Shown: positions 12,779-26,689 of the stretch, one piece after another
Layout of the letters: the number at the start of each line of letters is the position of its first letter
Position numbering within the stretch: the stretch's first letter is position 1
IMG/VR virus record: IMGVR_UViG_3300034062_004334
Location: 1 to 27,304 of that record
DNA: 27,304 nt
Direction: 5' to 3' (one strand)
DNA from: a virus
The notes under the pieces: model-generated
What the model saw: the letters and a program-made list of their open reading frames with translations, nothing else
Told to the model about the DNA's origin: nothing
Databases searched by the model: none
Translations under genes and position numbers: made by a program

Positions 12779-12941
12779 CAGAAAAACCCCCTGACTTGAC
12801 GTAAACTATTGTGGGATAAGACTTTACGACGAGCGATAATGCCCAGTGTTGATGTAAAGTCAATAGTGATAAGAGTTTAGGAAATCTTACGGTATTTTAA
12901 GAAAGTTTTTTGTTGACAGTTGAAGTTTGGGGTGGTAAAAT
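12779..12941 (+). promoter_or_regulatory. regulatory module copy 1 (atypical) with promoter
   Basis: This is the first and most aberrant copy. It has two successive box pairs, GTAAACTATTG...TAAGACTTTAC and GTAAAGTCAAT...TAAGAGTTTAG, instead of a hairpin plus one box pair. They are followed by the promoter TTGACA (12913-12918), a 17-base spacer and TAAAAT (12936-12941), then TGTCGATATAAG. It drives the gene at 12972. Confidence 0.7.
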
Positions 12942-12971
12942 GTCGATATAAGGAATAGAAACGGTATAAAA

Positions 12972-13148
12972 ATGAAAGAAATCGAAAAAAAACTCGAAAA
13001 ACTCGGATGTCGCCTGATCTCGACTAGATTCGGGATTCACGGAGATTGGTTGGTTGTAACCTTAGATGGTGAAGCCATATTTTTCCCCACATTAGGGGCT
13101 GTGAGTAGGTGGATTGACTACTATATGCAAAAGACTAGCGGCTCTTGA
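12972..13148 (+). CDS. hypothetical protein (58 aa)
   Basis: A 58-codon frame (MKEIEKKLEKLGCRLISTRF..., ending MQKTSGS) follows the module 1 promoter. A short basic/acidic helix is followed by a beta-rich, aromatic segment (GDWLVVTLDGEAIFFPTL). The ribosome site is weak (AAGGA about 18 bases upstream). The TGA stop lies inside the TTGACA box of the next promoter. No family is recognised. Confidence 0.65.
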   Translation: MKEIEKKLEKLGCRLISTRFGIHGDWLVVTLDGEAIFFPTLGAVSRWIDYYMQKTSGS

Positions 13149-13174
13149 CAAGTTCGTGATCGTAAGAGTATAAT
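13145..13174 (+). promoter_or_regulatory. promoter TTGACA-N18-TATAAT
   Basis: TTGACA (13145-13150) and TATAAT (13169-13174) are perfect sigma-70 hexamers 18 bases apart. The -35 box contains the TGA stop of the upstream gene. It serves the gene at 13202. Confidence 0.85.
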
Positions 13175-13201
13175 AGAAGCACTCTGAATAAGGAAACTCT
13201 G

Positions 13202-13369
13202 ATGCTCAATACCGATTGCCAAACAGAATCCGTGATTTATGTTAGTTCGTGCTGTTCTTGTGTGTTGTACGCAAAGAATGGAACATGCCCGCAATGCTTA
13301 AACGATTGCGAGCCTGTGGAAATGGCTATCGTCGAAGATGATGATGGCGAATCGTGGATTCTTGGATGA
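13202..13369 (+). CDS. cysteine-rich (zinc-ribbon-like) miniprotein (55 aa)
   Basis: This 55-residue frame starts MLNTDCQTESVIYVSS and has CCSC followed by CPQCLNDC, which could form a zinc ribbon, then an acidic tail (EDDDGESW). AAGGAA lies 7 bases before ATG 13202, and a perfect promoter is upstream. Zinc binding is inferred from the Cys spacing. A role in protein or nucleic-acid binding is possible. Confidence 0.65.
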   Translation: MLNTDCQTESVIYVSSCCSCVLYAKNGTCPQCLNDCEPVEMAIVEDDDGESWILG

Positions 13370-13512
13370 GACATAAGTTGTTGTTCTGCAACACTTTACA
13401 TCTTGGCGGCCCGCGACGAATTGACGTAAACTCTTATATTGTAAAGACTTGCGAACCTTACGGTATTTTAAGGAAGTTTTTTGTTGACAGTTGAAGTTTG
13501 GGATGGTAAAAT
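13370..13512 (+). promoter_or_regulatory. regulatory module copy 2 with promoter
   Basis: A hairpin AAGTTGTTG/CAACACTT (13375-13396, one bulge), GGCGGCCCGCG, GACGTAAACTCTTAT, AAGACTTGC and an AT tract lead to TTGACA (13484-13489), N17 and TAAAAT (13507-13512), followed by TGTCGATAA. The promoter spacer (GTTGAAGTTTGGGATGG) is almost identical to that of copy 1, and the preceding 30 bases also match, so the two are close duplicates. Confidence 0.8.
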
Positions 13513-13543
13513 GTCGATAACAGAGAAAGAAAGAGAGGATACG

Positions 13544-13759
13544 ATGGACAAGAACAAGGTGAACGACGCTCTCAAGGCTATCTGGGGTAGTGAGACGTAT
13601 CATGTGGTGTTGGTGTTCACGCCGGACGGTCGGCTGTTCGCGGAGTGTGACTTCACGGGTGATCGTCGCAGGCTCACGGAAAGCAACTTCGAGGCTGTGC
13701 TGAACGATATGTTCTACGATTACTGCGTTGAGAACGCGGCTTGGATGGGAGTTTCATGA
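13544..13759 (+). CDS. hypothetical protein (71 aa)
   Basis: ATG 13544 is chosen because GAGAGG lies upstream and the promoter -10 box falls inside the longer frame. The protein (MDKNKVNDALKAIWGSETYH..., ending AAWMGVS) is mixed alpha/beta with an acidic C-terminal part. Its codons are visibly GC-richer than those of the left arm. No family is recognised. Confidence 0.75.
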   Translation: MDKNKVNDALKAIWGSETYHVVLVFTPDGRLFAECDFTGDRRRLTESNFEAVLNDMFYDYCVENAAWMGVS

Positions 13760-13806
13760 TCCCCATATAAGGGGGGATTGACAGGCTGAAAAACTTTCGG
13801 TAGAAT
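13759..13806 (+). promoter_or_regulatory. hairpin fused to promoter TTGACA-N17-TAGAAT
   Basis: ATCCCC (13759-13764) pairs with GGGGAT (13773-13778), whose last base starts TTGACA (13778-13783); TAGAAT is at 13801-13806. The spacer carries GAAAAACTTTC, the mark of the module-free promoter class. It drives the HU-like gene. Confidence 0.8.
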
Positions 13807-13828
13807 AGCGACATCACCACTGGAGACG

Positions 13829-14113
13829 ATGAAAATGGTCGGAACGAAGCGAAGCATGGTTGAGGGTATCGCGGAGAAGGTTGGCGTGACGGGCGATCAG
13901 GCCCGCGAGATCGTGCAGGCTACGCTCGACAGCATGATCGAGACGCTCGCCACGACCGGTCGGATCGAACTGCGAAACTTCGGTGTGTTCACCGTGAAGG
14001 TTACCGCCCCTCGCAAGGCTCGCAACCCCCGAACGGGGGAGAGTGTGATGATCGGTGAGCGTCGGGTGGTGCGGTTCAAGGCTGGCAAGGTTATGGCCGA
14101 GCGGATCGGCTGA
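13829..14113 (+). CDS. HU/IHF family DNA-binding protein (94 aa)
   Basis: This is a clear histone-like DNA-bending protein: a helical dimerisation half (1-43), then IELRNFGVF (46-54), the DNA-contacting beta-arm with PRKARNPRTGE (61-71) and the closing VVRFKAGKVMAERI. The length equals the family norm. GGAG lies 5 bases before ATG 13829; a second ATG two codons on is possible. It would compact or bend DNA during replication, transcription or packaging. Phage HU proteins are known; this one is on the early-type arm with its own promoter. Confidence 0.93.
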   Translation: MKMVGTKRSMVEGIAEKVGVTGDQAREIVQATLDSMIETLATTGRIELRNFGVFTVKVTAPRKARNPRTGESVMIGERRVVRFKAGKVMAERIG

Positions 14114-14254
14114 CCTAAACCCTTTAGGCTATTGACTTTACGTCAAGCCGGGGCGCCCGCGTTTGCTGTAAACTCTTATATCACAAGCACTTACGAACCT
14201 TGCGAAACTTTCAGGAAACTTTTCACTTGACCCTAAAGGATTCGCTCGTATAAT
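14114..14254 (+). promoter_or_regulatory. regulatory module copy 3 with promoter
   Basis: Two hairpins overlap: CCTAAA/TTTAGG (14114-14128) and GGCT-TTGAC/GTCAAGCC (14127-14149). The GC block GGGGCGCCCGCG, GTAAACTCTTAT and CACTTACG follow. The promoter is TTGACC (14227-14232), N16 and TATAAT (14249-14254), with TGTCGATAATAG directly downstream. It serves the gene at 14287. Confidence 0.8.
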
Positions 14255-14286
14255 GTCGATAATAGAGTAAGAAAGAGAGAAAGAAA

Positions 14287-14511
14287 ATGGAAAAGACGAT
14301 TCACACTAACGACTTCATCAACAGCCTTCCGCGTATCGTGCAGAAGAAGGTTTGGAAAGTGACCGATGCCGATGGTACGGTTGTTCAGCACGTTGGTGCT
14401 ACCGACAACCGTAAGAGTACCGCACAGAGGTATATCGACGAGAAGTATCCTGGCAAGGTTCTCACGCTGACGTTCTCGCACTACAACGGACTGATTACGA
14501 TCCCCCGATGA
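14287..14511 (+). CDS. hypothetical protein (74 aa)
   Basis: MEKTIHTNDFINSLPRIVQK... continues with a likely beta-rich core (VWKVTDADGTVVQHVGA) and a basic helix (NRKSTAQRYIDEKYPGK). AGAGAAAG lies before the ATG. The next two genes also have short 'V.D..G....' strands, which may indicate distant paralogy. No family is recognised. Confidence 0.75.
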   Translation: MEKTIHTNDFINSLPRIVQKKVWKVTDADGTVVQHVGATDNRKSTAQRYIDEKYPGKVLTLTFSHYNGLITIPR

Positions 14512-14546
14512 GAGGGGATTGACAAGCCGGAAAAATCTGCTACAAT
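14500..14546 (+). promoter_or_regulatory. hairpin fused to promoter TTGACA-N16-TACAAT
   Basis: ATCCCC (14500-14505) pairs with GGGGAT (14514-14519), running into TTGACA (14519-14524) and TACAAT (14541-14546). The upstream stop codon lies in the hairpin loop. The leader CTATCCAACACAAGAG is shared with the promoters at 16177 and 16454. Confidence 0.8.
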
Positions 14547-14572
14547 CTATCCAACACAAGAGAAAGAGAATC

Positions 14573-14773
14573 ATGGAAAACTTTTGGATTGTTTCGGCAT
14601 TCTACGGTGAGAACGACGAGCGGAATAAGGATCGTCACTTCAGCACGTTGTTGGAGGCTAACTTTTTTGTGAATGCCGTGATCGATATCCAAATGGAAAA
14701 GAAAATGTACGGCGACTTGGTGTTGACCGTCAAGGATGCTCGCGGTAAGACCTATCACACTCACAATCTCTGA
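14573..14773 (+). CDS. hypothetical protein (66 aa)
   Basis: ATG 14573 is preferred because the promoter lies inside the longer frame. The protein starts MENFWIVSAFYGENDERNKD and has a helix HFSTLLEANFFVNAVIDIQ and a final strand LVLTVKDARGKTYHTHN. It may belong with its neighbours as a small alpha/beta protein. No function is recognised. Confidence 0.7.
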   Translation: MENFWIVSAFYGENDERNKDRHFSTLLEANFFVNAVIDIQMEKKMYGDLVLTVKDARGKTYHTHNL

Positions 14774-14785
14774 AAGAATACTAAA

Positions 14786-15001
14786 ATGTTCGGCACTGCC
14801 TACGCTAATCGGAAAAACAGCCTTAATACCATTTTCGCGTCCATGATTGCTGGTAAGTATACTAGCGTGATCGACCCGAAGGGCAGGGTGTATGCTGGCC
14901 TCGTCAACGGCGTGATGCGGGAAGATGGTAGTGGTCGTAACTGGATTGTTACCATCACAAATCAGACCAAGAGTGAACAGGTTTTCATCCACGCAACGTA
15001 A
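14786..15001 (+). CDS. hypothetical protein (71 aa)
   Basis: MFGTAYANRKNSLNTIFASM... is basic at the start and beta-rich later (SVIDPKGRVYAGLVNG, NWIVTITNQT). It starts 12 bases after the previous stop with only GAAAGA as a possible ribosome site, so it probably shares the upstream transcript. No family is recognised. Confidence 0.7.
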   Translation: MFGTAYANRKNSLNTIFASMIAGKYTSVIDPKGRVYAGLVNGVMREDGSGRNWIVTITNQTKSEQVFIHAT

Positions 15002-15002
15002 A

Positions 15003-15193
15003 CCAAAGAGCCACAAGACTTTACGTCGAGCCGGGCCGCCCGCGTTTTTCGTAAACTCTTATGTGACAACAACTTACGTCGATCTAGCAAATATCGTGCC
15101 AAAACGACAAGAAATGCTAAAAAGTTTTGTCAAAATTTCTTGACATAAAAATCTCTAGATTTTGCTTGCAACCTAAAGAATACGCTGTATAAT
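15003..15193 (+). promoter_or_regulatory. regulatory module copy 4 (extended) with promoter
   Basis: It contains CAAGACTTTACGTCGAG, the GC block CCGGGCCGCCCGCG, GTAAACTCTTATG and AACTTACG. About 60 extra AT-rich bases follow, with a small palindrome AAAATC/GATTTT. The promoter is TTGCAA (15166-15171), N16 and TATAAT (15188-15193), followed by TGTCGATATAAG. A spare TTGACA at 15140 has no matching -10. The spacer (CCTAAAGAATACGCTG) resembles copy 3. Confidence 0.75.
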
Positions 15194-15232
15194 GTCGATA
15201 TAAGAAGTAAGAGAGAAAGAGGAGAACGCAAG

Positions 15233-15418
15233 ATGTTCGAGATTGGCGATAAGGTTCGGCTCGGTGGTATCTCTGGCGTGATCGTCGGATGGTATTTCGA
15301 CGAGGGTGATGTGTGGGTGGTCGATCTGGCGGGTGTTCGCTGTGAGTGTTCGACCCAAGAGATTCTCAATGGCTATATTCCGCACGAATGGGAAGCGTCC
15401 TGCGGAAGTGGGGGTTGA
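15233..15418 (+). CDS. small SH3/KOW-like protein (61 aa)
   Basis: MFEIGDKVRLGGISGVIVGWY is a typical opening for a small five-stranded SH3/KOW-like barrel ('IGD.V...G..G.V'). The tail is acidic and ends in EASCGSGG. It has a good GAGGAG site. Similar openings occur in the products at 15986, 16233 and 21814, so this looks like a paralogous set. The stop TGA lies inside the next -35 box. The function is unknown. Confidence 0.75.
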   Translation: MFEIGDKVRLGGISGVIVGWYFDEGDVWVVDLAGVRCECSTQEILNGYIPHEWEASCGSGG

Positions 15419-15443
15419 CGCGGTAAAAAACTTTCTGTAGAAT
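15415..15443 (+). promoter_or_regulatory. promoter TTGACG-N17-TAGAAT
   Basis: TTGACG (15415-15420) and TAGAAT (15438-15443) flank a spacer with the A-tract GGTAAAAAACTTTC. The upstream TGA stop is embedded in the -35 box. It serves the gene at 15477. Confidence 0.8.
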
Positions 15444-15476
15444 CCTTTCATCACTACCACCAACAGGAAAACGACA

Positions 15477-15806
15477 ATGGCTACCAAGTTCAAGATCATC
15501 GAAGATGCCAAGCGTCAGGCTCGGTTGTGCTTTCTCGGCATCGCAATCCCTCACCAGCCGACCCTGGCCGATAGTGCGTATGGCCCGATCCGTAGCGAGA
15601 AGGTGCTGAAGTTCAATCGCAAGGCTCTCCGTCGTGCTGGTAAGACTAAGGCCGAAAAGGCCGATCCCCGCTACAAGGGGGGTGACGATTTGATGATCGT
15701 GAAGGTTGGCAAGCCCGGTTCGCCCGAACGCAAGGCGGCTCTGGCACAACAGTATGCCGCTATCCTTGACTGCGGCGAGGAAGTCTCCCCCTTCGCGGAG
15801 GGGTGA
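15477..15806 (+). CDS. hypothetical protein, basic (109 aa)
   Basis: The sequence MATKFKIIEDAKRQARLCFL..., with KFNRKALRRAGKTKAEKADP and SPERKAALAQQYAAIL, is strongly basic in the middle, which suggests nucleic-acid binding, and ends acidic. AGGA lies 9 bases before the ATG. No family is recognised. Confidence 0.75.
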   Translation: MATKFKIIEDAKRQARLCFLGIAIPHQPTLADSAYGPIRSEKVLKFNRKALRRAGKTKAEKADPRYKGGDDLMIVKVGKPGSPERKAALAQQYAAILDCGEEVSPFAEG

Positions 15807-15825
15807 CATCCGTACACTAATCGCA

Positions 15826-15959
15826 AAGCGTTGTGCCGTAAGACTTTACGGCGAACGCGGCCGCCCACGCTTGACGTAAACTCTTGTGACATAAGGATTT
15901 GCGACAAAAAAGATTTTTCAAGAAAAAGGTATTGACAGGACGATAATGTATGGTAGAAA
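15826..15959 (+). promoter_or_regulatory. regulatory module copy 5 with promoter
   Basis: A hairpin GCGTT..GCCGTAA/TTACGGC.AACGC (15828-15858) with loop GACT is followed by GCGGCCGCCC, GACGTAAACTCTTGTG, GGATTTGCGAC and AAAAAAGATTTTTCAAG. The promoter is TTGACA (15932-15937), N16 containing CGATAATG, and TAGAAA (15954-15959). Confidence 0.8.
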
Positions 15960-15985
15960 TAGTGGTACAGAAGAAAGAGAGGACG

Positions 15986-16180
15986 ATGATGTTCAACATT
16001 GGTGACCGGGTGCAGATTGGTAGTGATTTGGCATGGGCCACGGTGACGGACATTCTGCCCGCTATCGGTGATCGTGTCGCTATGTATCGGGTGCAGTTTG
16101 ACTCCGATGCTAGCCAGCGTTGGCTTGACGAGGGCATGATCTATGGTCCGTTTGTTGATCAGCCTTACGGGTGGGATTGA
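15986..16180 (+). CDS. small SH3/KOW-like protein (64 aa)
   Basis: ATG 15986 follows GAGAGGAC; upstream frame codons overlap the promoter. MMFNIGDRVQIGSDLAWATV and VAMYRVQFDSD match the barrel pattern of the product at 15233 and, more closely, the one at 16233 (both have 'AMYRV.F'). It probably arose by tandem duplication. The stop lies inside the next promoter. The function is unknown. Confidence 0.75.
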   Translation: MMFNIGDRVQIGSDLAWATVTDILPAIGDRVAMYRVQFDSDASQRWLDEGMIYGPFVDQPYGWD

Positions 16181-16204
16181 CAATCTGAAAAAATCGTCTA
16201 CAAT
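16177..16204 (+). promoter_or_regulatory. promoter TTGACA-N16-TACAAT
   Basis: TTGACA (16177-16182) contains the upstream TGA stop; TACAAT is at 16199-16204. The spacer has GAAAAAATCG and the leader CCATCCAACACAAAAG, as in the promoters at 14519 and 16454. Confidence 0.85.
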
Positions 16205-16232
16205 CCATCCAACACAAAAGAAAGAGCAAAAC

Positions 16233-16457
16233 ATGATCAACATCGGCAGCAAAGTTATGGTTGGTTCGCGGATCGGCAATCCTGACCAAAAGGCTGTGGT
16301 GGTCGATATCATCCCCGGCAATGAGTATCGGGAGGCTATGTACCGGGTTCGCTTCCCCGAAAATCCTTCTGTCGTTACCATCACACCAAACCCTAACGAG
16401 TGCTGGGTTGACGCTCCATTGGTGTGGCCAGATTTGACGAACAGTTATTGTGGTTGA
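16233..16457 (+). CDS. small SH3/KOW-like protein (74 aa)
   Basis: MINIGSKVMVGSRIGNPDQK and EAMYRVRFPENP mark it as a paralog of the product at 15986. The C-terminal part is more Pro/Trp-rich (CWVDAPLVWPDL). The chosen start lies downstream of the -10 box, which excludes the longer frame. AAGAG is a weak ribosome site. The stop TGA lies within the next TTGACA. Confidence 0.75.
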   Translation: MINIGSKVMVGSRIGNPDQKAVVVDIIPGNEYREAMYRVRFPENPSVVTITPNPNECWVDAPLVWPDLTNSYCG

Positions 16458-16482
16458 CAGGCCGAAAAAAATCTGCTACAAT
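16454..16482 (+). promoter_or_regulatory. promoter TTGACA-N17-TACAAT
   Basis: TTGACA (16454-16459) overlaps the preceding stop codon; TACAAT is at 16477-16482. The spacer GGCCGAAAAAAATCTGC and leader CCATCCAACACAAGAG are nearly those of the promoters at 14519 and 16177. Confidence 0.85.
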
Positions 16483-16509
16483 CCATCCAACACAAGAGAG
16501 AAAAAACAG

Positions 16510-16734
16510 ATGGATATTCGCAAGAGTGACATGATTCAGTTTCGCATGGGTGACACCTATGCTTACGGTAAGGTGGATAGCATCGCTCGCACCAACGACG
16601 GCGAAGTGATCGCATACTATGTGATCCCTGTTGACGGCGGAGAAAATATGTGGGTTGACTGTGACGACGCAGTATCGTATACTGCTCTCCGTGCTGCATT
16701 TGGTCCGATTCCCTCAGTTGAAAAGGCTCTCTGA
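16510..16734 (+). CDS. hypothetical small beta-rich protein (74 aa)
   Basis: ATG 16510 lies just after the promoter leader. The sequence MDIRKSDMIQFRMGDTYAYG, followed by VIAYYVIPVDGG, is beta-rich and may be a distant member of the SH3/KOW-like set, but the opening differs. The tail is neutral. No family is recognised. Confidence 0.7.
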   Translation: MDIRKSDMIQFRMGDTYAYGKVDSIARTNDGEVIAYYVIPVDGGENMWVDCDDAVSYTALRAAFGPIPSVEKAL

Positions 16735-16735
16735 A

Positions 16736-16957
16736 ATGCTTGGCCGAATCATTACCACTAACGAGATTCTCGACGCTGTCGATGAAATGATGCCAGACAA
16801 CACCATCGTTGCTATCTTGGCTTCTGGTGGTGGCGGATGGTTCGTGAGGCTGAACAATCATCCTGAAACCGTGCTGCTCCGCTCTGCCGACACGTTCTAC
16901 CAGAAACTGAACGATTACTGCGTGAAGGTAGAAGATCCCTCGTCGTGGGGCGATTGA
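16736..16957 (+). CDS. hypothetical protein (73 aa)
   Basis: The start lies 2 bases after the previous stop, with AAAGG about 11 bases upstream, so it is co-transcribed. MLGRIITTNEILDAVDEMMP opens with a helix. The middle is Gly-rich (LASGGGGWFVRLNNHPE) and the end has Tyr and acidic residues. No function is recognised. Confidence 0.75.
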   Translation: MLGRIITTNEILDAVDEMMPDNTIVAILASGGGGWFVRLNNHPETVLLRSADTFYQKLNDYCVKVEDPSSWGD

Positions 16958-16961
16958 TCCC

Positions 16962-17097
16962 AAGTCCTTGTCGCACAATACTTTGCGACGAGGCTCCGCG
17001 GCCACGCTCGACCTAAACTCTTATCGTTCAACGAGTTACAACAAAAAAGATTTTTTGAAGAAAAGGGTATTGACAGGCCGATAATAGTATGTAGAAT
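16962..17097 (+). promoter_or_regulatory. regulatory module copy 6 with promoter
   Basis: A 10-bp hairpin CCTTGTCGCA/TGCGACGAGG (16966-16975 with 16984-16993, one G-T pair) is followed by CCGCGGCC, GACCTAAACTCTTATC, CGAGTTAC, AAAAAAGATTTTTTGAAG, then TTGACA (17070-17075), N16 with CCGATAATAG, and TAGAAT (17092-17097). Confidence 0.85.
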
Positions 17098-17125
17098 CCA
17101 AGTATCACCCCAACGGAGAACGACG

Positions 17126-17350
17126 ATGCTCAACAACTTCGACGATGTGAACGGTATCCTGGCCGACCTTGCGGAGCAGGATATTCTGGAGCCGATGGTC
17201 GAGCCGATTGACGAGCCGACGTGTCACCCGATGGATTGGGCGGAAGTCACGGGTCTGGCCGATGAGATGGCCGATGAGGTTTATCCCGAAGACGATTTTG
17301 AACCCGTGCATATGATTGACGAGCGTGGTGCGGTGTGGTATACTTTCTGA
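17126..17350 (+). CDS. acidic protein (74 aa)
   Basis: The protein is strongly acidic, with about 21 Asp/Glu and almost no Lys/Arg in 74 residues. MLNNFDDVNGILADLAEQD opens with a helix; the middle has PMVEPIDEPT and the end VHMIDERGAVWYTF. GGAG lies 8 bases before the ATG. The next gene is even more acidic. A DNA-mimic or charge-shield role is possible but unproven. Confidence 0.75.
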   Translation: MLNNFDDVNGILADLAEQDILEPMVEPIDEPTCHPMDWAEVTGLADEMADEVYPEDDFEPVHMIDERGAVWYTF

Positions 17351-17363
17351 ACAGGAGAAAAGG

Positions 17364-17576
17364 ATGAGTCACCCAGATCCCCTTTATGACGATTATAACG
17401 ATTTTCACGACGACGATGATCGAAAGAATCATTTTGATGATTTTGAGGATGATTCGCCAGAGTTCGATGAAGACGACTACGATGATAGCATGGATGGCGA
17501 CCACGATTCTGCGATGGAATCGGCCGGTTGGGGAACGGATGAGGATTACGGTTATTTCGGCGGAGAGGACTACTAG
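17364..17576 (+). CDS. hyperacidic Asp-rich protein (70 aa)
   Basis: I count 23 Asp and 6 Glu against one Lys and one Arg in 70 residues. The acids are spread with Tyr, Phe and Gly (YDDYNDFHDDDD, DEDYGYFGGEDY), and no hydrophobic core is visible. It is probably extended or disordered. Phage proteins this acidic often mimic DNA or bind basic proteins such as HU. ATG 17364 follows AGGAGAAAAGG. Function is inferred from composition only. Confidence 0.75.
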   Translation: MSHPDPLYDDYNDFHDDDDRKNHFDDFEDDSPEFDEDDYDDSMDGDHDSAMESAGWGTDEDYGYFGGEDY

Positions 17577-17577
17577 C

Positions 17578-17715
17578 CCTAAAGCCTTGCCGCATAAGAC
17601 TTTGCGGCGAGGCGGGCCGCACAGGTTTGACGTAAACTCTTATCTGCTAATGACTTACAGCAAAAAATATTTTTTCAAGAAAACCTATTGACAGGCCGAT
17701 AATAGAGTGTAGAAT
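17578..17715 (+). promoter_or_regulatory. regulatory module copy 7 with promoter
   Basis: An 11-bp hairpin GCCTTGCCGCA/TGCGGCGAGGC (17584-17594 with 17603-17613) is followed by GGGCCGC, GACGTAAACTCTTATC, ATGACTTACAGC and AAAAAATATTTTTTCAAG. The promoter is TTGACA (17688-17693), N16 with CCGATAATAG, and TAGAAT (17710-17715), followed by TGTCGATAAGAG. This copy has CGATA on both sides of the -10 box. Confidence 0.85.
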
Positions 17716-17750
17716 GTCGATAAGAGAACATCACCCAGAAGGAAAAGAAC

Positions 17751-18074
17751 ATGACTCACGCCGAAGCGACTAAGATGGTTTTGGGCAAGCGAAATCGTGG
17801 CCAGCGTAAGATTGGCAATAATACCTACGCCTACATTCAGGCCGATGGTAGCGTTGCAATCGAGTTGCATGGTACGAACGTGGTGGTCATCTACCCTGAT
17901 GATAGCGTGATGCTGAATAGTGGCGGCTGGCATACAAGCACCACGAAGGATCGTATCAACAAGTATAGCCCGGTGCGAGTGTACCAGAAGAACTACGAAT
18001 GGTTCCTCAGCGATGGTACTCCGTTCGAGGATCGGATGATCGTGACCCCCGATTGGGTGGTTGCTCCCGTCTGA
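17751..18074 (+). CDS. conserved phage protein (107 aa)
   Basis: The segments RKIGNNTYAYIQADGSVAIE, HGTNVVVIYPDDSVMLNSGG and 'W.T.TTKDR.N.Y' match a widespread but uncharacterised phage and prophage protein pattern that I recognise from many unrelated tailed phages. The C-terminal part has WFLSDGTPFEDRM, also usual for it. It is probably a small beta-rich domain of unknown role. AAGGA lies before the ATG. The family recognition is from memory of the pattern. Confidence 0.8.
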   Translation: MTHAEATKMVLGKRNRGQRKIGNNTYAYIQADGSVAIELHGTNVVVIYPDDSVMLNSGGWHTSTTKDRINKYSPVRVYQKNYEWFLSDGTPFEDRMIVTPDWVVAPV

Positions 18075-18214
18075 GCCTAAAGCCTTGAAGCGTAACACTT
18101 TACGCCAAGGCCCGCCGCCCGCGTTTGACGCAAACTCTTACGTCTCAACACTTTACGACAAAAAACTTTTTTCTAATGCCAACCCTTGACAAATGCCGAT
18201 AATAGATGTAGACT
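18075..18214 (+). promoter_or_regulatory. regulatory module copy 8 with promoter
   Basis: The hairpin GCCTTG..GCGTAA/TTACGC.CAAGGC (18082-18111) is identical to that of copy 16. It is followed by CCGCCGCCCGCG, GACGCAAACTCTTACGTC, CACTTTACGAC and AAAAAACTTTTTTC. The promoter is TTGACA (18186-18191), N17 with CCGATAATAG, and TAGACT (18209-18214). Confidence 0.85.
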
Positions 18215-18242
18215 TGATGGTATTCAACAACGAGGAGAAGAT

Positions 18243-18446
18243 ATGAGCGATGCTGTGCTGGTTCCTGTGCGTCATGATAACGTGAGTTTCAAGTATCATG
18301 GTAAGGATTTCACCGGAGAGGTTCGTCGAGTGTACGACAAGCCCAAGGGTCATTTGATGATCGTGAAGATCGAAGAGGGTAAGTATAGGTCGTGCTATCT
18401 GGAACAGTGCGAAGGGTTGACCATCCACCTGTCTCACCCGATGTAA
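18243..18446 (+). CDS. hypothetical small beta-rich protein (67 aa)
   Basis: ATG 18243 follows GAGGAGAAGAT. The sequence MSDAVLVPVRHDNVSFKYHG, then FTGEVRRVYDKPKGHLMIVK, is beta-rich and basic. It has two Cys near the end (CYLEQCEG) and could be another small barrel. The C-terminal codons and stop lie next to a CCCGAT/ATCGGG hairpin (18437-18451). Confidence 0.75.
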   Translation: MSDAVLVPVRHDNVSFKYHGKDFTGEVRRVYDKPKGHLMIVKIEEGKYRSCYLEQCEGLTIHLSHPM

Positions 18447-18733: not shown

Positions 18734-18734
18734 A

Positions 18735-18812: not shown

Positions 18813-18878
18813 ATGTTTTCTGGAATCCCTATGATTGTGGAAGCCTTAAAGAAAATGAACGACTCTAAGGGTAGATGA
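18813..18878 (+). CDS. micropeptide (21 aa)
   Basis: ATG 18813 lies 3 bases after the previous stop, with GTGGGG as a possible ribosome site. MFSGIPMIVEALKKMNDSKG is amphipathic and basic. The stop is next to module copy 9. Whether it is translated is uncertain. Confidence 0.35.
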   Translation: MFSGIPMIVEALKKMNDSKGR

Positions 18879-18879
18879 T

Positions 18880-19007
18880 CTAAAGCCCTGTGGCGTAACA
18901 CTTTACGCTGCAAGGCCACGGCCCCATTTTTCATAAACTCTTATCTGGTAACGACTTAGATTTTTTCAAGAAAATCACTTGACAATGCCGATAATAGGTA
19001 GTAGAAT
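18880..19007 (+). promoter_or_regulatory. regulatory module copy 9 with promoter
   Basis: The hairpin GCC.TGTGGCGTAA/TTACGCTGCA.GGC (18885-18916, one mismatch, wobble pairs) is followed by CACGGCCCC, CATAAACTCTTATC, ACGACTTAG and ATTTTTTCAAG. The promoter is TTGACA (18979-18984), N17 with CCGATAATAG, and TAGAAT (19002-19007). Confidence 0.85.
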
Positions 19008-19043: not shown

Positions 19044-19478
19044 ATGGACACCATCGCCCTGACCCTTTCGATCACCAACGCCCTGCTGCTGCTGCGTAAC
19101 GTCACGCTCCCGCTGGATGTGAGGGACGATGTCGCCACCGCTATCGAGAACGCCTTCAAGGGACGCGGACTCAACGTCGGCAACACCAATCGCCTGAACC
19201 TGACGCTGCGATACGTTCCCAAGGATCACAAGGTTAGGGCTATAGCCGTGTTCAAGAATACGCTGAGATTCGGACTGCGTGAGGCAAAGGATTTCGTCGA
19301 GATTGTGCTGGGCAAGGACGGATACTACAATAACGAACACCGATGGAAGGATGGTGTGGCTGGCACCCCCGCCACCATCACGGGGGCAAAGGCAGATGTT
19401 CTCAAGGCCGTGAAGGAACTGGAGAATCTGGGTTGCGAAGTGGTGGTTGACGACTACGGCTGCTCTAATCTCAACTGA
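19044..19478 (+). CDS. ribosomal bL12 C-terminal-domain-like protein (144 aa)
   Basis: Residues 62-135 resemble the bL12 (L7/L12) C-terminal domain: KVRAIAVFKNTLRFGLREAK, with the conserved 'GL.EAK..VE' helix (76-86), then AKADVLKAVKELENLGCEVV, matching the last helix and strand. A 20-residue insert (about 91-111) separates the halves. The N-terminal 60 residues do not look like the bL12 dimerisation domain. The bL12 C-terminal domain contacts translation GTPases, so the protein could affect host translation. Viral bL12 genes are known; this divergent form is unusual. AAGGA lies 7 bases before the ATG. Codons are GC-rich. Confidence 0.75.
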   Translation: MDTIALTLSITNALLLLRNVTLPLDVRDDVATAIENAFKGRGLNVGNTNRLNLTLRYVPKDHKVRAIAVFKNTLRFGLREAKDFVEIVLGKDGYYNNEHRWKDGVAGTPATITGAKADVLKAVKELENLGCEVVVDDYGCSNLN

Positions 19479-19479
19479 C

Positions 19480-19608
19480 ATAAAGCCATGCGACGTAAGA
19501 CTTTACGTTGCAAGGCCACGCCCGCGTTTGACGTAAACTCTTGTCCGATAAGCAGTTGCAACAAAACAAAAAATACCTATTGACTTCTCAAGTTTCGCAC
19601 GGTAGAAT
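19480..19608 (+). promoter_or_regulatory. regulatory module copy 10 with promoter
   Basis: The hairpin GCC.TGCGACGTAA/TTACGTTGCA.GGC (19485-19516) shows compensatory changes relative to copy 9. GACGTAAACTCTTGTC, GCAGTTGCAAC and an A tract follow. The promoter is TTGACT (19580-19585), N17 and TAGAAT (19603-19608), then TGTCGATATAATC. The spacer has CTCAAGTTT, as in the promoter at 19792. Confidence 0.8.
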
Positions 19609-20077: not shown

Positions 20078-20317
20078 ATGAGACAACCTAAGTGTGTTGT
20101 AACGGTTACTGATACGTTTGGTGGAGAGGCTAACTATGGTTGGGTGAAGCGTTATGAGTTTTCTCCTCGTAATGCAGAGTCTCAGCGTAGCGTTGTTCGA
20201 CAGGCCAAGGCATTGGCGAACATGACCTCTGTGAAGGCCGACACCTACGATTATGGTGACGGATACACTGTGAAGCCGCGAGGATATAACCAGATTATCT
20301 TTGTGGATTTTGAGTGA
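20078..20317 (+). CDS. hypothetical protein (79 aa)
   Basis: ATG 20078 follows AAGGAG with 10 bases spacing. MRQPKCVVTVTDTFGGEANY and YEFSPRNAESQRSVVRQAKA suggest a small alpha/beta protein. The end is beta-rich (DGYTVKPRGYNQIIFVDFE). It shares the transcript of the zinc-ribbon gene. No family is recognised. Confidence 0.75.
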   Translation: MRQPKCVVTVTDTFGGEANYGWVKRYEFSPRNAESQRSVVRQAKALANMTSVKADTYDYGDGYTVKPRGYNQIIFVDFE

Positions 20318-20318
20318 G

Positions 20319-20457
20319 CCACAAACCCTTGCTGCATAAGACTTTGCGGCACGGGTGGCCGCCCCGATTTGACGCAAACTCTTACGCCGCAATACCTTAC
20401 AGCACAAAAGATTTTTCAAGAAATGGGGCTTGACATACCGATAATAGATAGTAGAAT
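20319..20457 (+). promoter_or_regulatory. regulatory module copy 11 with promoter
   Basis: The hairpin CCC.TGCTGCA/TGCGGCA.GGG (20326-20355) is followed by GGTGGCCGCCCC, GACGCAAACTCTTACG, ACCTTACAGC and AAAAGATTTTTCAAG. The promoter is TTGACA (20430-20435), N16 with CCGATAATAG, and TAGAAT (20452-20457). The ATG at 20464 lies about where transcription should start. Confidence 0.85.
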
Positions 20458-20749: not shown

Positions 20750-21157
20750 ATGAACGATGTGATGTTGTTTGGTTCGATTGCTACGATTGTTGTTTGCTGC
20801 CTCGCTATGTTTGCTGTGTATGGCATCTATGGTGGTGCTTATGGTTCTCTCTCTACCGCAAGGCCAGGAGAGTTCTATAACTTTGAATATCTTCAGCCTA
20901 ACGCTGGTGATCCCGAGCGTTTTCTGGCAAAGGTACTGAGTGTTCATATTCTCGACGAAAATGCTATTCGCAGACTCAATGCTCGTAGCAACTATCGTCG
21001 CCATGATAGCCAGTTTGTGCGTACCAATCATCTGGTAACGTGCCAGACTGCCGATGGTAAGATTCGCAACTTCTATGCTGAGCGTACGGTGAACTGCCGT
21101 AGGCCATTGCTGGCTGGTGCAGCATTCAAGACCGGCTTGGCTAGTCTTCTCTTCTGA
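20750..21157 (+). CDS. membrane-anchored hypothetical protein (135 aa)
   Basis: One N-terminal membrane segment (FGSIATIVVCCLAMFAVYGI, about 7-26) precedes a soluble domain with RARSNYRRHD-like basic stretches (RRLNARSNYRRHDSQFVRT) and QTADGKIRNFYAERTVNCRR. The second half looks like a conserved small phage domain, but I cannot name it. AAAGGG lies before the ATG. It probably faces the cytoplasm or periplasm at the inner membrane. Confidence 0.75.
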   Translation: MNDVMLFGSIATIVVCCLAMFAVYGIYGGAYGSLSTARPGEFYNFEYLQPNAGDPERFLAKVLSVHILDENAIRRLNARSNYRRHDSQFVRTNHLVTCQTADGKIRNFYAERTVNCRRPLLAGAAFKTGLASLLF

Positions 21158-21179: not shown

Positions 21180-21316
21180 GTTCTCGCTCTAAGTTCTTGT
21201 ATCCCAAGAGTTTAGGGCGAGGCCCGCCGCACGGTTTTGACGTAAAGTCTTATCTGCCATAGACTTAGAAAAATCTCAAGCATTCTATTGACAAAACCCG
21301 ATACTGACAGTATATT
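21180..21316 (+). promoter_or_regulatory. regulatory module copy 12 with promoter (class II boxes)
   Basis: A long hairpin begins CTCGCTCTAA and closes with TTTAGGGCGAG (21183-21221), with CTTG/CAAG inside. GGCCCGCCGC, GACGTAAAGTCTTATC and TAGACTTAG follow. The promoter is TTGACA (21288-21293), N17 with CCGATACTG, and TATATT (21311-21316). Boxes are in the swapped form (AAGAGTTTA then TAAAGTCTTA). Confidence 0.8.
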
Positions 21317-21817: not shown

Positions 21818-21972
21818 TGTATAAGATTGGCAATATTGTTCATGATATTATACAGGATGAGGATGTGATTATTATTGATGTATCGGATAAAACTAATCCT
21901 CCTATGTATCTTGTATTGAATCATGCTGACGATCAGTATTATGTATCGGGGGATGATATTGTGTTGACCTAA
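21814..21972 (+). CDS. small SH3/KOW-like protein (52 aa)
   Basis: ATG 21814 overlaps the previous stop. MMYKIGNIVHDIIQDEDVII, then PPMYLVLNHADDQYYVSGDD, follows the same barrel pattern as the products at 15233-16457 ('IG..V...', a central 'MY.V' strand). It is acidic. The codons are more AT-rich than those of the relatives, suggesting older divergence. The function is unknown. Confidence 0.7.
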   Translation: MMYKIGNIVHDIIQDEDVIIIDVSDKTNPPMYLVLNHADDQYYVSGDDIVLT

Positions 21973-22085
21973 AGTGTTTGTGGATAAGAGTTTAGGACAA
22001 TGGTGGGCGGCCCGATTTGATATAAAGTCTTATGGCATAAGGACTAAAGTTTATGCTTGACAATGCCGATATCATCTAGTAGAAT
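21969..22085 (+). promoter_or_regulatory. regulatory module copy 13 with promoter (class II boxes)
   Basis: The hairpin CCTAAA/TTTAGG (21969-21974 with 21991-21996) includes the stop codon of the upstream gene. GGGCGGCCCG, GATATAAAGTCTTATG and AAGGACTAAAG follow. The promoter is TTGACA (22057-22062), N17 with CCGATATCATC, and TAGAAT (22080-22085). This is the shortest copy. Confidence 0.8.
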
Positions 22086-23345: not shown

Positions 23346-23499
23346 ACGGAAAGGTTCGCTCTAAGTTCTTGACTACCAAGAGTTTAGGGCAAACCGCCGC
23401 GGCCGGGTTCGACGCAAACTCTTGTGTTGTATAGACTTGCATCAAAAAAGATTTTTTCAAGGAATGGTGCTTGACAGACCGATAATAGGAGTGTAGAAT
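23343..23499 (+). promoter_or_regulatory. regulatory module copy 14 with promoter (mixed boxes)
   Basis: The hairpin GTT.GCTCTAA/TTTAGGGC.AAC (23354-23394) with inner CTTG/CAAG is followed by CCGCCGCGGCC, GACGCAAACTCTTGTG, TAGACTTGC and AAAAAAGATTTTTTCAAG. The promoter is TTGACA (23471-23476), N17 with CCGATAATAG, and TAGAAT (23494-23499). It drives an RNA, not a protein gene. Confidence 0.85.
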
Positions 23500-23514: not shown

Positions 23515-23600
23515 GGCGGGTGTAGCGTAATGGTAGCGCGTGTAAAATCGTTGGCAGAGATCTACTGTCTACACGAAATGGTTCGATCCCATTCCCCGCC
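23515..23600 (+). ncRNA. tRNA-like RNA 1, abnormal anticodon arm
   Basis: The acceptor GGCGGG/CCCGCC, a D-arm GCGT-AATGGTA-GCGC and a T-arm AATGG-TTCGATC-CCATT are tRNA-like. The anticodon region is not. GTGTA (23540-23544) pairs with TACAC (23570-23574), and between them AAATCGTT bulges out before a second stem GGCAG/CTGTC with loop AGATCTA, which lacks U33. The linker before the D-arm is one base too long. A promoter lies 16 bases upstream, and the next promoter begins 3 bases after its end. It may be an intron-like, decayed or specialised tRNA. Confidence 0.55.
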
Positions 23601-23630: not shown

Positions 23631-23645
23631 ACGATAGTAAGACAT

Positions 23646-23743
23646 GGCTAGAGTACGCGAAGTGGGACTTCGAATAGGGTCACCCCTATTGTATGATGAT
23701 CACATACCAGCCGTTCGACTCGGCCCTTTGCCTCTAGTCACCA
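23646..23743 (+). ncRNA. tRNA-like RNA 2 with extra hairpin, encoded ACCA end
   Basis: The 8-bp acceptor GGCTAGAG/CTCTAGTC is followed by ACCA. Inside lie, in order, hairpins CGAAGT-GGG-ACTTCG, AATAGGG-TCAC-CCCTATT, GTATG-ATGATCA-CATAC (a 7-base loop with U33 and GAT at the anticodon position) and GCCG-TTCGACT-CGGC (a T-arm loop). The second hairpin is additional to a tRNA, and seven extra bases separate the T-arm from the acceptor. It has its own promoter and the same leader as RNA 1. It may be an aberrant Ile(GAU)-type tRNA or a mimic. Confidence 0.55.
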
Positions 23744-23900
23744 ACGAAAATCCGATTCATTCGGTGTGCTACCCTCCATAATGAGATCATAGCCTATATT
23801 GGTGACACAATACAAACTTCCGTGGGTCCATGCGACGGGACTAGATTAGGATAAGCCATTACGATAAACCCTATGGCTGCTACGCTCATGCAGCGTGGGG
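23744..23900. other. ORF-free segment with inverted repeats
   Basis: No gene is supported. TTGGTGAC (23799-23806) is a perfect complement of GTCACCAA at the 3' end of tRNA-like RNA 2 (23737-23744). Hairpins CCGA-TTCAT-TCGG, TTCCGT/ACGGGA (23818-23840) and GCTGC/GCAGC (23876-23894) follow; the last is just before the next promoter and may act as a terminator. TTCCGTGGG and GATTAGGATA recur at 24189 and 24229. Confidence 0.45.
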
Positions 23901-23928
23901 TTGACAGCGGGCTTATACGCTGTATAGT
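23901..23928 (+). promoter_or_regulatory. promoter TTGACA-N16-TATAGT
   Basis: TTGACA (23901-23906) and TATAGT (23923-23928) lack the CGATA motif. They lie about 50 bases before tRNA-like RNA 3, and a GGAT-GGC-ATCC hairpin lies in between. Confidence 0.75.
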
Positions 23929-23975
23929 AGTGCTAATCTATGGGGGATGGCATCCTCACCACGAGTAATACAATA

Positions 23976-24111
23976 CGGGAGTAAAAGTCGTTCCCTTTGT
24001 AAGACTGATCATCTTACTAGGTAAATAGACCCATATGGTACGCAAAGATAACTAACGCTGGCGCCAGCAAACCTATCTTTGCGGGTGGTTCGATTCCTCT
24101 ACTCTCTTCCA
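23976..24111 (+). ncRNA. tRNA-like RNA 3 with giant variable region, CCA end
   Basis: GGGAGT (23977-23982) pairs with ACTCTC near the 3' end, and CCA is encoded at 24109-24111. The D-arm AAAG-TCGTTCC-CTTT lacks GG in its loop. The anticodon arm TAAGA-CTGATCA-TCTTA (24000-24016) is canonical, with GAT (Ile) and U33. About 65 bases then replace the variable loop, including a perfect 9-bp stem GCAAAGATA/TATCTTTGC (24042-24050 with 24074-24082). The T-arm has loop TTCGATT and one mismatch. It is the most tRNA-like of the three, yet about 60 bases too long. Confidence 0.55.
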
Positions 24112-24282
24112 TACAACCAGTAACCGTCGCCAAGAGCCAGACCAGAGCGGGTCTTGTGTGCTAGCAATGCCCGCTTTGCAGGGAGGATTTCCGTGGGCGG
24201 TTTCCACAGTTCCCTACTGATTAGGATAGACTGATAGGTAATAGAATCGGGGCGTAAAAGATTCGCTGGTAAAATAAAAAGG
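24112..24282. other. ORF-free segment with inverted repeats
   Basis: No gene is supported. AGACC/GGGTCT, AGCGGG/CCCGCT and GTGG/CCAC pairs are visible. TTCCGTGGG (24189-24197) and GATTAGGATA (24229-24238) repeat sequences at 23818 and 23844. GAATC/GATTC (near 24244-24264) may form a last hairpin. It could be the remainder of a longer structured transcript from the promoter at 23901. Confidence 0.4.
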
Positions 24283-24419
24283 GGTTCGCTCTAAATGCTT
24301 ACGCTGTAAGAGTTTAGGGCAAACTGCCGTGGCCGGATTCGTCGTAAAGTCTTATGCGACAAAGACTTAGGATTCTTAAAGAAAAGCCTATTGACAATCC
24401 GATAATAGTAGTGTAGAAT
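24283..24419 (+). promoter_or_regulatory. regulatory module copy 15 with promoter (class II boxes)
   Basis: The hairpin GTTCGCTCTAA/TTTAGGGCAAAC (24284-24324) with inner CTTAC/GTAAG is followed by CCGTGGCC, GTCGTAAAGTCTTATG, AAGACTTAGG and an AT tract. The promoter is TTGACA (24391-24396), N17 with CCGATAATAG, and TAGAAT (24414-24419). Confidence 0.85.
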
Positions 24420-25228: not shown

Positions 25229-25431
25229 ACTGGCATTATGGTAATCCTATTGGGGAAGGACAATATCTTTGTTGTGTGATTGGCTATCGATATCCTGTCG
25301 TTACCGATTGGCATGATGGAGCATGGGGTAAATGGCATACAGGCAGAGAGAAGACATGGGTTCCTCTTGATGAAGAACAAGTTCTATGCTATATTGGTTT
25401 TGATGAGATTCCTATGCCGGAGGGTTGGTGA
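25225..25431 (+). CDS. hypothetical protein (68 aa)
   Basis: ATG 25225 overlaps the previous stop. MNWHYGNPIGEGQYLCCVIG and DWHDGAWGKWHTGREKTWVP show a Trp/Gly-rich beta protein. The end VLCYIGFDEIPMPEGW resembles DUF551-like small phage proteins, which often end in 'W...P.P'. The assignment is tentative. Confidence 0.75.
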   Translation: MNWHYGNPIGEGQYLCCVIGYRYPVVTDWHDGAWGKWHTGREKTWVPLDEEQVLCYIGFDEIPMPEGW

Positions 25432-25610
25432 TGAAAACTGAAACTCTTGAACTAACTAAGGTTGAACTTGATTATCTCCTTAGTATTGTTCATGAACATA
25501 TTGACTCTGGTGTTTCATGGGGCAATCATGCTCAGTTTGTAAAGATGCAAAACAGGGTTTTGGAAAAGATTGAGGAAGCATACGATATGGCTTTTGGTCA
25601 TAAAACGTAA
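25431..25610 (+). CDS. hypothetical protein (59 aa)
   Basis: The start shares one base with the previous stop (TGATG), with GGAGG upstream. MKTETLELTKVELDYLLSIV and MQNRVLEKIEEAYDMAFGHK are helical. The stop TAA already belongs to the conserved start of module 16. No family is recognised. Confidence 0.75.
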   Translation: MKTETLELTKVELDYLLSIVHEHIDSGVSWGNHAQFVKMQNRVLEKIEEAYDMAFGHKT

Positions 25611-25743
25611 AGCCTTGAAGCGTAACACTTTACGCCAAGGCCCGCCGCCAGCGTTTGACGTAAACTCTTACGTCATAAAGACTTGTAACACAAAAGATTT
25701 TTTCAAGAATATCGCTTGACAATACCGATAATAGTGGTAGAAT
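25608..25743 (+). promoter_or_regulatory. regulatory module copy 16 with promoter
   Basis: The hairpin at 25612-25641 is identical to that of copy 8, and the match continues with two changes through GACGTAAACTCTTACGTC, where the box itself forms a perfect 7-bp stem. AAGACTTGTAAC and AAAAGATTTTTTCAAG follow. The promoter is TTGACA (25716-25721), N16 with CCGATAATAG, and TAGAAT (25738-25743). Confidence 0.85.
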
Positions 25744-25761
25744 AGCAGCATAAGGAGAACC

Positions 25762-25999
25762 ATGATGAACGATGATCAAATGAAAGGCTATCTTCGCCTA
25801 CTGGCAGGATGAAACGTATTTTGAGTTTGGGGATTTTCTACAGAAGTATTCTTTGCCAAACTTTGCTGAAACCCATATAGGGTGGCATGAGGCGGCAAAC
25901 GAAGTGATGCATGAGCCGTTTGGCCTTCAAATGCCAAAACTGGTAGTGTGTCCTAAAAATGGTTCTATTATGCCAGAGTATTATCTGCAAAAGGAATAG
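25762..25999 (+). pseudogene. frameshifted small gene (two overlapping frames)
   Basis: ATG 25762, with AAGGAG upstream, starts a 16-codon frame that stops at 25812. A well-formed frame without its own start (KAIFAYWQDETYFEFGDFLQ...) runs from 25784 to the TAG at 25999. Removing one G from AAAGGC near 25784-25787 would join them as MMNDDQMKAIFAYWQDETYF. This may be a recent frameshift mutation, a sequencing error or a +1 programmed shift. The joined product would be about 78 residues, with no recognised family. Confidence 0.6.
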
Positions 26000-26001
26000 G
26001 T

Positions 26002-26259
26002 ATGGAATGGATTAGTTTTTTCGGTCCTAGACGCCCTATCAACGGCCAAAAGGTTTATTACTTTGGCGAGTATATTGGTGTGTGGCAGGGAAGGTACGAG
26101 ATTCATCGTGATGATCCGGTGAGCGAACATATCTTGATTTGTGAAGAAACTCCAGGTATAGTAGATCGTATGGATGCTCCGTGGTGGATGCCATATGAGG
26201 GACAACCAAAACCAAAACGACCAGAAAGTGACTACCCAAAGGATTATCCACATGGCTAA
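26002..26259 (+). CDS. hypothetical phage protein (85 aa)
   Basis: MEWISFFGPRRPINGQKVYY, then 'FGEYIGVWQGRYE' and DRMDAPWWMPYEGQPKPKRP, match a recurring small phage protein pattern with a Pro-rich tail (ESDYPKDYPHG); the function is unknown. AAAGG lies before ATG 26002. The end overlaps the next start by 8 bases. Confidence 0.75.
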   Translation: MEWISFFGPRRPINGQKVYYFGEYIGVWQGRYEIHRDDPVSEHILICEETPGIVDRMDAPWWMPYEGQPKPKRPESDYPKDYPHG

Positions 26260-26464
26260 AAACTTTAAGGATTTGCACACTATCGACGCGAAGGATATGA
26301 CACGCGATCAGGCTATGATCTATGTGATTAACTTCTTTAACTCTCGTATGGCTACTATGAGTAATAGCCATAGAAATAAAGTTAAAGAGGTTATTGGACT
26401 GCATGAGATTGGTACTAGCGAACTAGTTAACAAGTATCTGGAGTTAGTTCTTGAAAACTCTTGA
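26252..26464 (+). CDS. hypothetical helical protein (70 aa)
   Basis: ATG 26252 follows AAAGGA at 7 bases and lies inside the end of the previous gene; the longer frame has no ribosome site. MAKNFKDLHTIDAKDMTRDQ and HRNKVKEVIGLHEIGTSELV are helical and basic. No family is recognised. Confidence 0.7.
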   Translation: MAKNFKDLHTIDAKDMTRDQAMIYVINFFNSRMATMSNSHRNKVKEVIGLHEIGTSELVNKYLELVLENS

Positions 26465-26573
26465 CAATGTTTGTGCTTGTGGTAACTGTAATGAACTTTG
26501 CTATATGCTAGATAAGCATGAGGTTTTTTGGAGTTTTTGTGCCGATTGCTACTGGTGGTATCTAAAGTATTGA
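26451..26573 (+). CDS. possible Cys-rich miniprotein with TTG start (40 aa)
   Basis: A TTG at 26451 with GGAG 7 bases upstream opens a 40-codon frame: KTLDNVCACGNCNELCYMLD and VFWSFCADCYWWYLKY. Six cysteines in CxCxxCxxxC...CxxC spacing suggest zinc binding. It overlaps the previous gene by 14 bases, and its stop lies in the hairpin of module 17. The unusual start keeps confidence moderate. Confidence 0.5.
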   Translation: MKTLDNVCACGNCNELCYMLDKHEVFWSFCADCYWWYLKY

Positions 26574-26689
26574 AGCGTAAGACTTTAGAGAGAACCGGGG
26601 CGGCCGGATTTGACGTAAACTCTTATCTATCAACCACTTAGGATTTTTTAAAGAAAACCCTTGACACTGACCGATAATAGAAGTATACT
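26561..26689 (+). promoter_or_regulatory. regulatory module copy 17 with promoter
   Basis: Here the hairpin is CTAAAGT/ACTTTAG (26562-26568 with 26582-26588). CGGGGCGGCCGG, GACGTAAACTCTTATC, ACCACTTAGG and ATTTTTTAAAG follow. The promoter is TTGACA (26661-26666), N17 with CCGATAATAG, and TATACT (26684-26689). It drives the structured RNA at 26697. Confidence 0.85.

Follow-up and report, generated by a model that had tools for sequence, protein, structure and literature searches.

The stretch of viral DNA analysed here, IMG/VR record IMGVR_UViG_3300034062_004334 (27,304 bases, hereafter the window), is divided into a left arm of minus-strand genes, terminase among them, and a right arm of small plus-strand genes interspersed with copies of one module of paired dyads. 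The arms differ sharply in base composition (30-41% GC at 1-12700 versus 46-50% GC at 13500-21000, in 1.5-kb steps), and GC content is 41-50% across 13.5-27 kb of the right arm. The module was sought over the whole window. A repeat search found 17 ungapped copies of 85 nt at 12795-26645 and zero to the left of 12795, which agrees with the initial annotation, where 17 copies in the right arm and none in the left had been claimed at these places. A 90-nt weight matrix gave the same result: each copy, left out in turn, scored 38-105 bits, while the best non-module position on the plus strand of the window scored -8.4 bits, a gap of more than 40 bits. Similarity among the copies extends far beyond the -35 and -10 hexamers, to which, the annotation had cautioned, it might have been confined. 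Over 2.41 Mb of fetched loci, many of them derived from the same contigs, the matrix gave 433 matches above 15 bits (199 distinct sequences), and none in the same DNA reversed.

The module is built from a single 12-bp half-site, used four times to form two dyads. In module coordinates (position 1 being 12795 in copy 1), half-sites a (6-17, CCTAAAGYCTTG) and b (23-34, YAAGACTTTACG) are separated by five bases and form the 29-bp dyad D1 (6-34, centre 20). Half-sites c (59-70, CGTAAACTCTTA) and d (76-87, YAANGACTTACG), also separated by five bases, form the 29-bp dyad D2 (59-87, centre 73). A GC block (35-58) lies between the dyads, whose centres are a fixed 53 bp apart without gaps, and D2 is followed on its 3' side by an A/T-rich linker of stepwise varying length and a TTGACA-N16/17-TAGAAT-like promoter (Table 1). 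Because one sequence underlies all four half-sites, the whole element scores high on both strands, with the opposite-strand reading offset by 2 bases. This replaces the multi-box composition first described: its two boxes, GTAAACTCTTAT and ANGACTTAC, are halves of one dyad and start 17 bases apart, not 20, and the hairpin noted upstream is present but spans a second dyad of the same half-site. Several modules, in the window and in relatives, have a further inverted repeat near CTTACGATATTGTAAGGAAA between D2 and -35 (for example, at 12883-12905 and 13454-13476).

Table 1. Coordinates of the modules, their promoters and two conserved proteins in the window
Feature	Coordinates	Strand	Remarks
Module 1	12795..12884	+	weakest, left-out score 38 bits; promoter 12913-12941
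Module 2	13367..13456	+	promoter 13484-13512
Module 3	14109..14198	+	promoter 14227-14254
Module 4	14992..15081	+	long linker; weak promoter 15166-15193 (TTGCAA); GCAAATATCGTGCCA element 15087-15101
Module 5	15817..15906	+	promoter at 15932: TTGACA, 16, TAGAAA (by eye)
Module 6	16954..17043	+	promoter 17070-17097
Module 7	17573..17662	+	top score; promoter 17688-17715
Module 8	18071..18160	+	promoter 18186-18214
Module 9	18874..18963	+	promoter 18979-19007
Module 10	19474..19563	+	promoter 19580-19608
Module 11	20315..20404	+	promoter 20430-20457
Module 12	21183..21272	+	promoter 21288-21316
Module 13	21963..22052	+	promoter 22057-22085; only 4 bp between module end and -35
Module 14	23355..23444	+	promoter 23471-23499, then tRNA-like RNA
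Module 15	24285..24374	+	promoter 24391-24419
Module 16	25601..25690	+	promoter 25716-25743
Module 17	26556..26645	+	promoter 26661-26689
Conserved protein at arm boundary	11176..11823	-	sub-threshold sigma-70 region 2 match; in the window and 16/16 contigs, all classes
Conserved small protein	12028..12258	+	AT-hook match, HTH-like look (by eye); relatives in 16/16 contigs, all classes

Site classes among relatives

In large related contigs the modules form one cluster per contig, as they do in the right arm of the window. There are 18 in G007 (243.8 kb), 15 each in G011, G012 and G020, 16 each in G005 and G025, 19 in G014 and 24, the highest number, in G016; fewer are found where a contig end cuts the cluster (six in G019, seven in G008 and one in G015). 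The window and 11 contigs together give a set of 176 modules, which omits G001 (repeating the modules of the window), G006 (repeating those of G005) and G015 (one module). Within this set, 161 modules share the orientation of the other modules in their cluster.

Covariation in the module is strongest between positions 27-29 of half-site b and positions 64-66 of half-site c (mutual information with average product correction up to 0.64, standard deviation 0.034; 126 non-redundant of 198 copies): b and c repeat one recognition sequence, and the two change in concert. At these b/c positions class A reads AAGACTTTA / TAAACTCTT and class B AAGGACTTA or AAGCACTTA / TAAGTCCTT. Most contigs belong clearly to one class or the other, and two loci (L215 and L227) score as A/B mixtures. 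Contigs G009 and G010 are without the module; k-mer counts revealed in them instead 40 and 29 copies, respectively, of the palindrome CTGCCAAAATGGCAG (≤2 mismatches), here called class C. These palindromes form pairs 29 bp apart with a GC block between, and most pairs precede an A/T-rich linker and a promoter of the same type. The exact class C pair was found in 65 stretches in a scan, and three further large contigs carry class C only (8, 14 and 12 pairs). G014 and G015 each have one unpaired class C-like palindrome (≤2 mismatches). Searched de novo for double dyads at the 53-bp spacing, G009 and G010 gave one place each, as did a shuffle of G010.

Terminase relatives comprise at least 598 confirmed stretches in IMG/VR, of which 80 were kept, with loci extending at most 10 kb from the terminase; 31 of these loci carry A/B modules, 4 class C and 45 neither. 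Modules of A/B and C were never found together at one locus (0/204, in four sets with overlapping contigs), and one of 14 loci with the class A pattern has no full module. Homologous genes are nevertheless found around different sites. Homologues of the 79-aa protein encoded at 20078-20317 lie among A/B modules at 37/45 loci and in class C at 5/45; the other three loci (L218, L233 and L255) have no full module, and by eye two of them, L218 and L233, contain lone dyads resembling those of the module. Since genes are shared and sites are not, this is the pattern predicted by a trans-acting factor with exchanged specificity. The differing site classes also support the earlier proposal of an operator specific to the phage group.

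Megablast of window positions 1-25000 against 50,697 phage records gave no match, and terminase relatives occur in 42 phage records, with 22-30% identity among the 15 matches listed. A terminase scan of GTDB returned two contigs from metagenome-assembled genomes (Flavobacteriales and SAR202), neither a trustworthy host. No link was established to a lineage of large aquatic phages in the part of the source consulted (PMC12619734).

A further repeated element near GCAAATATC(A/G)TGCCA, often at one end of the cluster, occurs at 15087-15101 in the window, 39026-42740 in G009, 6916-8566 in G010, 57836-62263 in G011 and 60100-64912 in G015. On the opposite strand it resembles a sigma-54 promoter (TGGCAY-N5-TTGC), and reversed controls gave none.

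The D1 hairpin and the downstream promoters

When halves of D1 were swapped between copies within a genome, the real copies folded better in 12/12 genomes (z -3.0 to -6.7, p ≤0.005, 176 modules), these genomes being related and some having copies in common. The same test for D2 gave z -0.6 to +2.3, and real copies folded worse than swaps between b and c (z +0.2 to +3.4) or of whole elements (z +0.6 to +2.9). This shows that D1 is selected as a local hairpin, that D2 is not, and that a long fold of the whole element is avoided. With its arms unmatched and the whole-element fold disfavoured, D2 looks like a DNA site. The hairpin is not merely the D1 dyad read as RNA: its predicted stem has its centre at position 20, the dyad centre, in 58/176 copies and at 24-32 in 107/176. 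Its minimum free energy is ≤-10 in 131/176 modules. A stop codon of an open reading frame (ORF) falls at module positions +3 to +10 in 79/176 modules, compared with 5.2% of 3411 random nearby positions, so that the module often provides the stop; within -80 to +25 the figures are 165/176 and 56% of random nearby positions.

Four half-sites arranged as a pseudo-palindrome that scores high on both strands, next to small genes that vary between relatives, recall the attC sites of integrons, with the small genes as exchangeable cassettes. Folding of the attC kind is disfavoured by the swaps, in which real copies fold worse across b-c and across the whole element, the opposite of what attC requires. 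Among copies picked up by the ungapped matrix, the 90-nt length does not vary. Neither a tyrosine nor a serine recombinase was over cut-off in the 11 large contigs, with one match, in G007, below it. Recombination sites of this type are hardly credible here. Exchange of cassettes by recombination had also been proposed initially. The right arm of the window was aligned with six class A contigs, and among alignments of 200 nt or longer the ends were enriched in the promoter and linker (27/132, 9.9 expected) but not in the module itself (17/132, 15.4 expected). Exchange by way of common promoters fits this weakly, since such promoters also make alignments longer.

A sigma-70-like promoter with a spacer of 16 or 17 lies within 110 bp of 15/17 window copies, the exceptions being copies 4 and 5. 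The module region holds 66 sigma-70-like sites, compared with 24.9 ± 4.6 in shuffles, and the 26 sites with 11 or 12 of 12 matches are all on the plus strand. Across the window and contigs a promoter follows 148/174 modules, with scores per genome of 7.0-9.9 versus 2.3-3.2 in shuffled DNA; the spacers contain CGATA in 63/90 cases in class A, 32/40 in class B and 30/53 in class C. The distance between module end and -35 falls into groups of 15-16, 24-28 and 34-39 bp, plus some longer values, which places D2 centres mostly about 33, 42-46 and 52-57 bp upstream of -35. This stepping was significant against jitter (R 0.66 near 10.4-10.5 bp, 63 non-redundant of 130 promoters, p 2e-4) and in each class alone: class A (n 40, R 0.70, p 3e-4, phase 1.8 bp), class B (n 23, R 0.58, p 0.004, phase 1.6 bp) and class C (n 28, R 0.50, p 0.002, phase 0.3 bp). 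The phase of the distance from D2 centre to -35 agrees among the three classes to within 1.5 bp. The control, the spacing of the first ATG from -10, had an R of 0.11 in class A (n 37) and 0.32 in class B (n 17).

Clustered repeated dyads at fixed spacing are typical of partition, replication or packaging loci, and promoters might adjoin such sites by chance of compactness. A promoter at stepped distances after most copies and the common direction of modules within a cluster make this very improbable. Sites of class I activators such as CRP, and of p4 of phage phi29, also lie upstream of -35 at steps of the helical repeat, and D2 stands at helical-step distances as such upstream sites do. Unlike these, it is one of two paired dyads in a module that also has a 3' hairpin and recurs up to 24 times in one phage region.

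Candidate regulators and a proposed mode of action

D2 lies at class I activator distances, where a repressor would not cover the promoter, and we therefore prefer an activator touching RNA polymerase, at a little under even odds. The reading we favour, with a probability of roughly 0.45, is a boundary module at which a protein bound to D1 and D2 would contact polymerase, most likely activating it, with regulator and sites exchanged as a set. The module would form the boundary between transcription units, D1 serving both as the 3'-terminal hairpin of one small-gene unit and as a putative protein-binding dyad. D2, 53 bp downstream of D1, would be a second dyad for the same protein, on a preferred helix face upstream of a near-consensus sigma-70 promoter, from where the bound protein could touch host RNA polymerase in a class I-like manner. 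The whole small-gene region would most likely be activated together. Each phage would hold one specificity class, and regulator plus sites would pass jointly between related phages. The separation of A/B from C modules, with the same promoter type and nearly the same helical phase in both, implies a single trans-acting regulator in each phage, which would act through RNA polymerase and may be host-encoded. Only tentatively can a stronger form be put forward. In it, one regulator on paired dyads would close the upstream unit, by roadblock and hairpin, and would also drive the following promoter or gate it, acting from a constant face of the helix; lineages would exchange their regulator and the entire operator set of a dozen or more modules at once, while the architecture and many genes stay.

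Several observations weigh against the activator reading. Fifteen of the 176 modules are oriented opposite to the rest of their cluster. The class C D1 swap test was not significant (z -1.2, 32 pairs), and the 29-bp spacing between the two class C dyads is not an integral number of helical turns. Promoters already so close to consensus fit poorly with a need for activation. The best period is 11.6 in class A (R 0.72) and 10.1 in class C (R 0.55), which supports steps of roughly one turn, not of exactly 10.5 bp, and because copies and genomes share descent, neither the stepping nor the 12 fold tests are independent. No U tract was found after D1, and no terminator-like T-run site coincides with a module; the region holds 10 terminator-like sites, compared with 10.6 in shuffles. 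Of the features of an intrinsic terminator, D1 has the hairpin under selection and lacks the U run, and G-U pairs show no coding-strand bias (270 vs 277). With no U run, and with the wobble pairs silent on strand, we only infer that transcription ends at D1. The module had been said initially to end one transcript and start the next: the hairpin at the unit end and the promoter for the next unit stand, but a standard intrinsic terminator does not. Finally, ten proteins whose presence tracks site class gave no convincing DNA-binding match in Pfam and PHROGs, the remaining ones being judged by eye.

Such class-tracking genes were sought among short ORFs, several of which occur in A/B contigs but are missing from C contigs, or vice versa (at most 10 large contigs were compared, with a simple ORF caller, and the contigs are perhaps incomplete). 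An ORF at 144246-144428 of G012 is in 5/5 A/B and 0/5 C contigs, as is one at 129224-129469 of G014, whose G012 relative also matches one class C contig. Pfam matches for two groups of ten window proteins, which had one protein in common, included no regulator. The 79-aa protein, present in 13/14 A/B contigs (not G015) and absent from G009 and G010, was rejected as regulator, as it is also found at 5 class C loci. The two proteins at the arm boundary (Table 1) were rejected as class-specific regulators, their sequence being kept across classes (alignments by eye); they could serve common parts of the system.

Regulation by a host transcription factor, with classes that mirror different hosts, would account for the lack of a recognisable DNA-binding gene tracking class in the 10 large contigs. 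It would also agree with the confinement of class C sites (≤1 mismatch) to the cluster in G009 and G010, where no site outside it, and so no autoregulated phage gene elsewhere, was seen. The class C locus L214, however, holds a 90% identical homologue of the 79-aa protein of the window, suggesting recent exchange between phages of different classes, and we regard a host factor as improbable.

A phage repressor at D1 and D2 might instead shut off the early small genes and perhaps also block elongation from the upstream gene, like mycobacteriophage stoperators. Many like intergenic sites per genome, with a consensus differing between relatives, resemble immunity systems, and strong promoters would require control. 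Most D2 centres, however, at 33-57 bp upstream of -35, lie off the promoter, and there was no clear temperate sign: HTH_3, tyrosine integrase and resolvase were not over cut-off in the 11 large contigs, with sub-threshold matches to PF00589 integrase in G007 (24.2 of 27.1 bits) and to HTH_3 in G021. A repressor, or a stoperator-like roadblock, is the main alternative and is possible, if doubtful.

Promoter-early stem-loop mobile regulatory cassettes of T4-type phages repeat a promoter and a stem-loop between small genes, and are not known to carry operator dyads. Promoter and hairpin are common to both systems; in the module the stem-loop lies upstream of the promoter and doubles as a dyad, and mobility like that of the T4 cassettes is weakly suggested by the alignment ends. 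Cluster A mycobacteriophages, as described in the parts of the sources consulted, carry many stoperators of one specificity across the genome, and consensus and repressor specificity differ between relatives (PMC6550527, PMC9283540). The present sites likewise have one consensus per phage that differs between relatives. Unlike stoperators, which are 13-bp asymmetric sites, they consist of four half-sites in two symmetric 29-bp dyads at fixed spacing, with a hairpin and, in most cases, a promoter that follows at helical-step distances, and an integrase over cut-off was not found. In phage SP-beta the 15-bp motif SPBRE occurs at 9-10 promoters under one master regulator, MrpR, in the accessible part of that study (PMC10516654). 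This too is an operator repeated in promoter regions of many phage genes; paired dyads, a hairpin and class replacement are not mentioned for SPBRE in that part, where MrpR has a tyrosine-recombinase fold, of which none was over cut-off in the 11 contigs here. Repeated phage operators are thus already known. Among the matches listed in searches of openly licensed papers, none described this module or its combination of dyads paired at a fixed distance, a 3' hairpin, helical stepping and replacement of the whole set.

If the activator reading is true, one switch would run dozens of small genes in large, abundant water phages, and the lineages would be a natural experiment in the joint replacement of a regulator and all its sites. 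The helical steps across three operator classes allow a direct and cheap test of RNA polymerase contact, and module class can be used as a marker to sort these uncultured phages into regulatory groups.

Other features of the window

After module 14, a tRNA-like RNA at 23516-23600 (plus strand) scores just below the Rfam cut-off (28.7 of 29 bits); it has a long insert at the place of the anticodon loop (by eye) and was missed by ARAGORN. The class C relative L214 has a similar tRNA-like RNA with a larger insert at about 7890-7990. Between modules 14 and 15, the stretch 23640-24250 is without convincing genes and looks like a non-coding RNA gene; it gave no Rfam match up to E 1, the tRNA-like one aside, and L215 contains a similar stretch near 9000-9130 (by eye). 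Among the small genes on the plus strand, 13829-14113 encodes an HU-family protein and 19044-19478 a product matching the C-terminal domain of ribosomal protein L7/L12. On the minus strand, 8649-9134 encodes a protein with an ERCC4-type nuclease domain, whose family is present in the window and 15/16 contigs.

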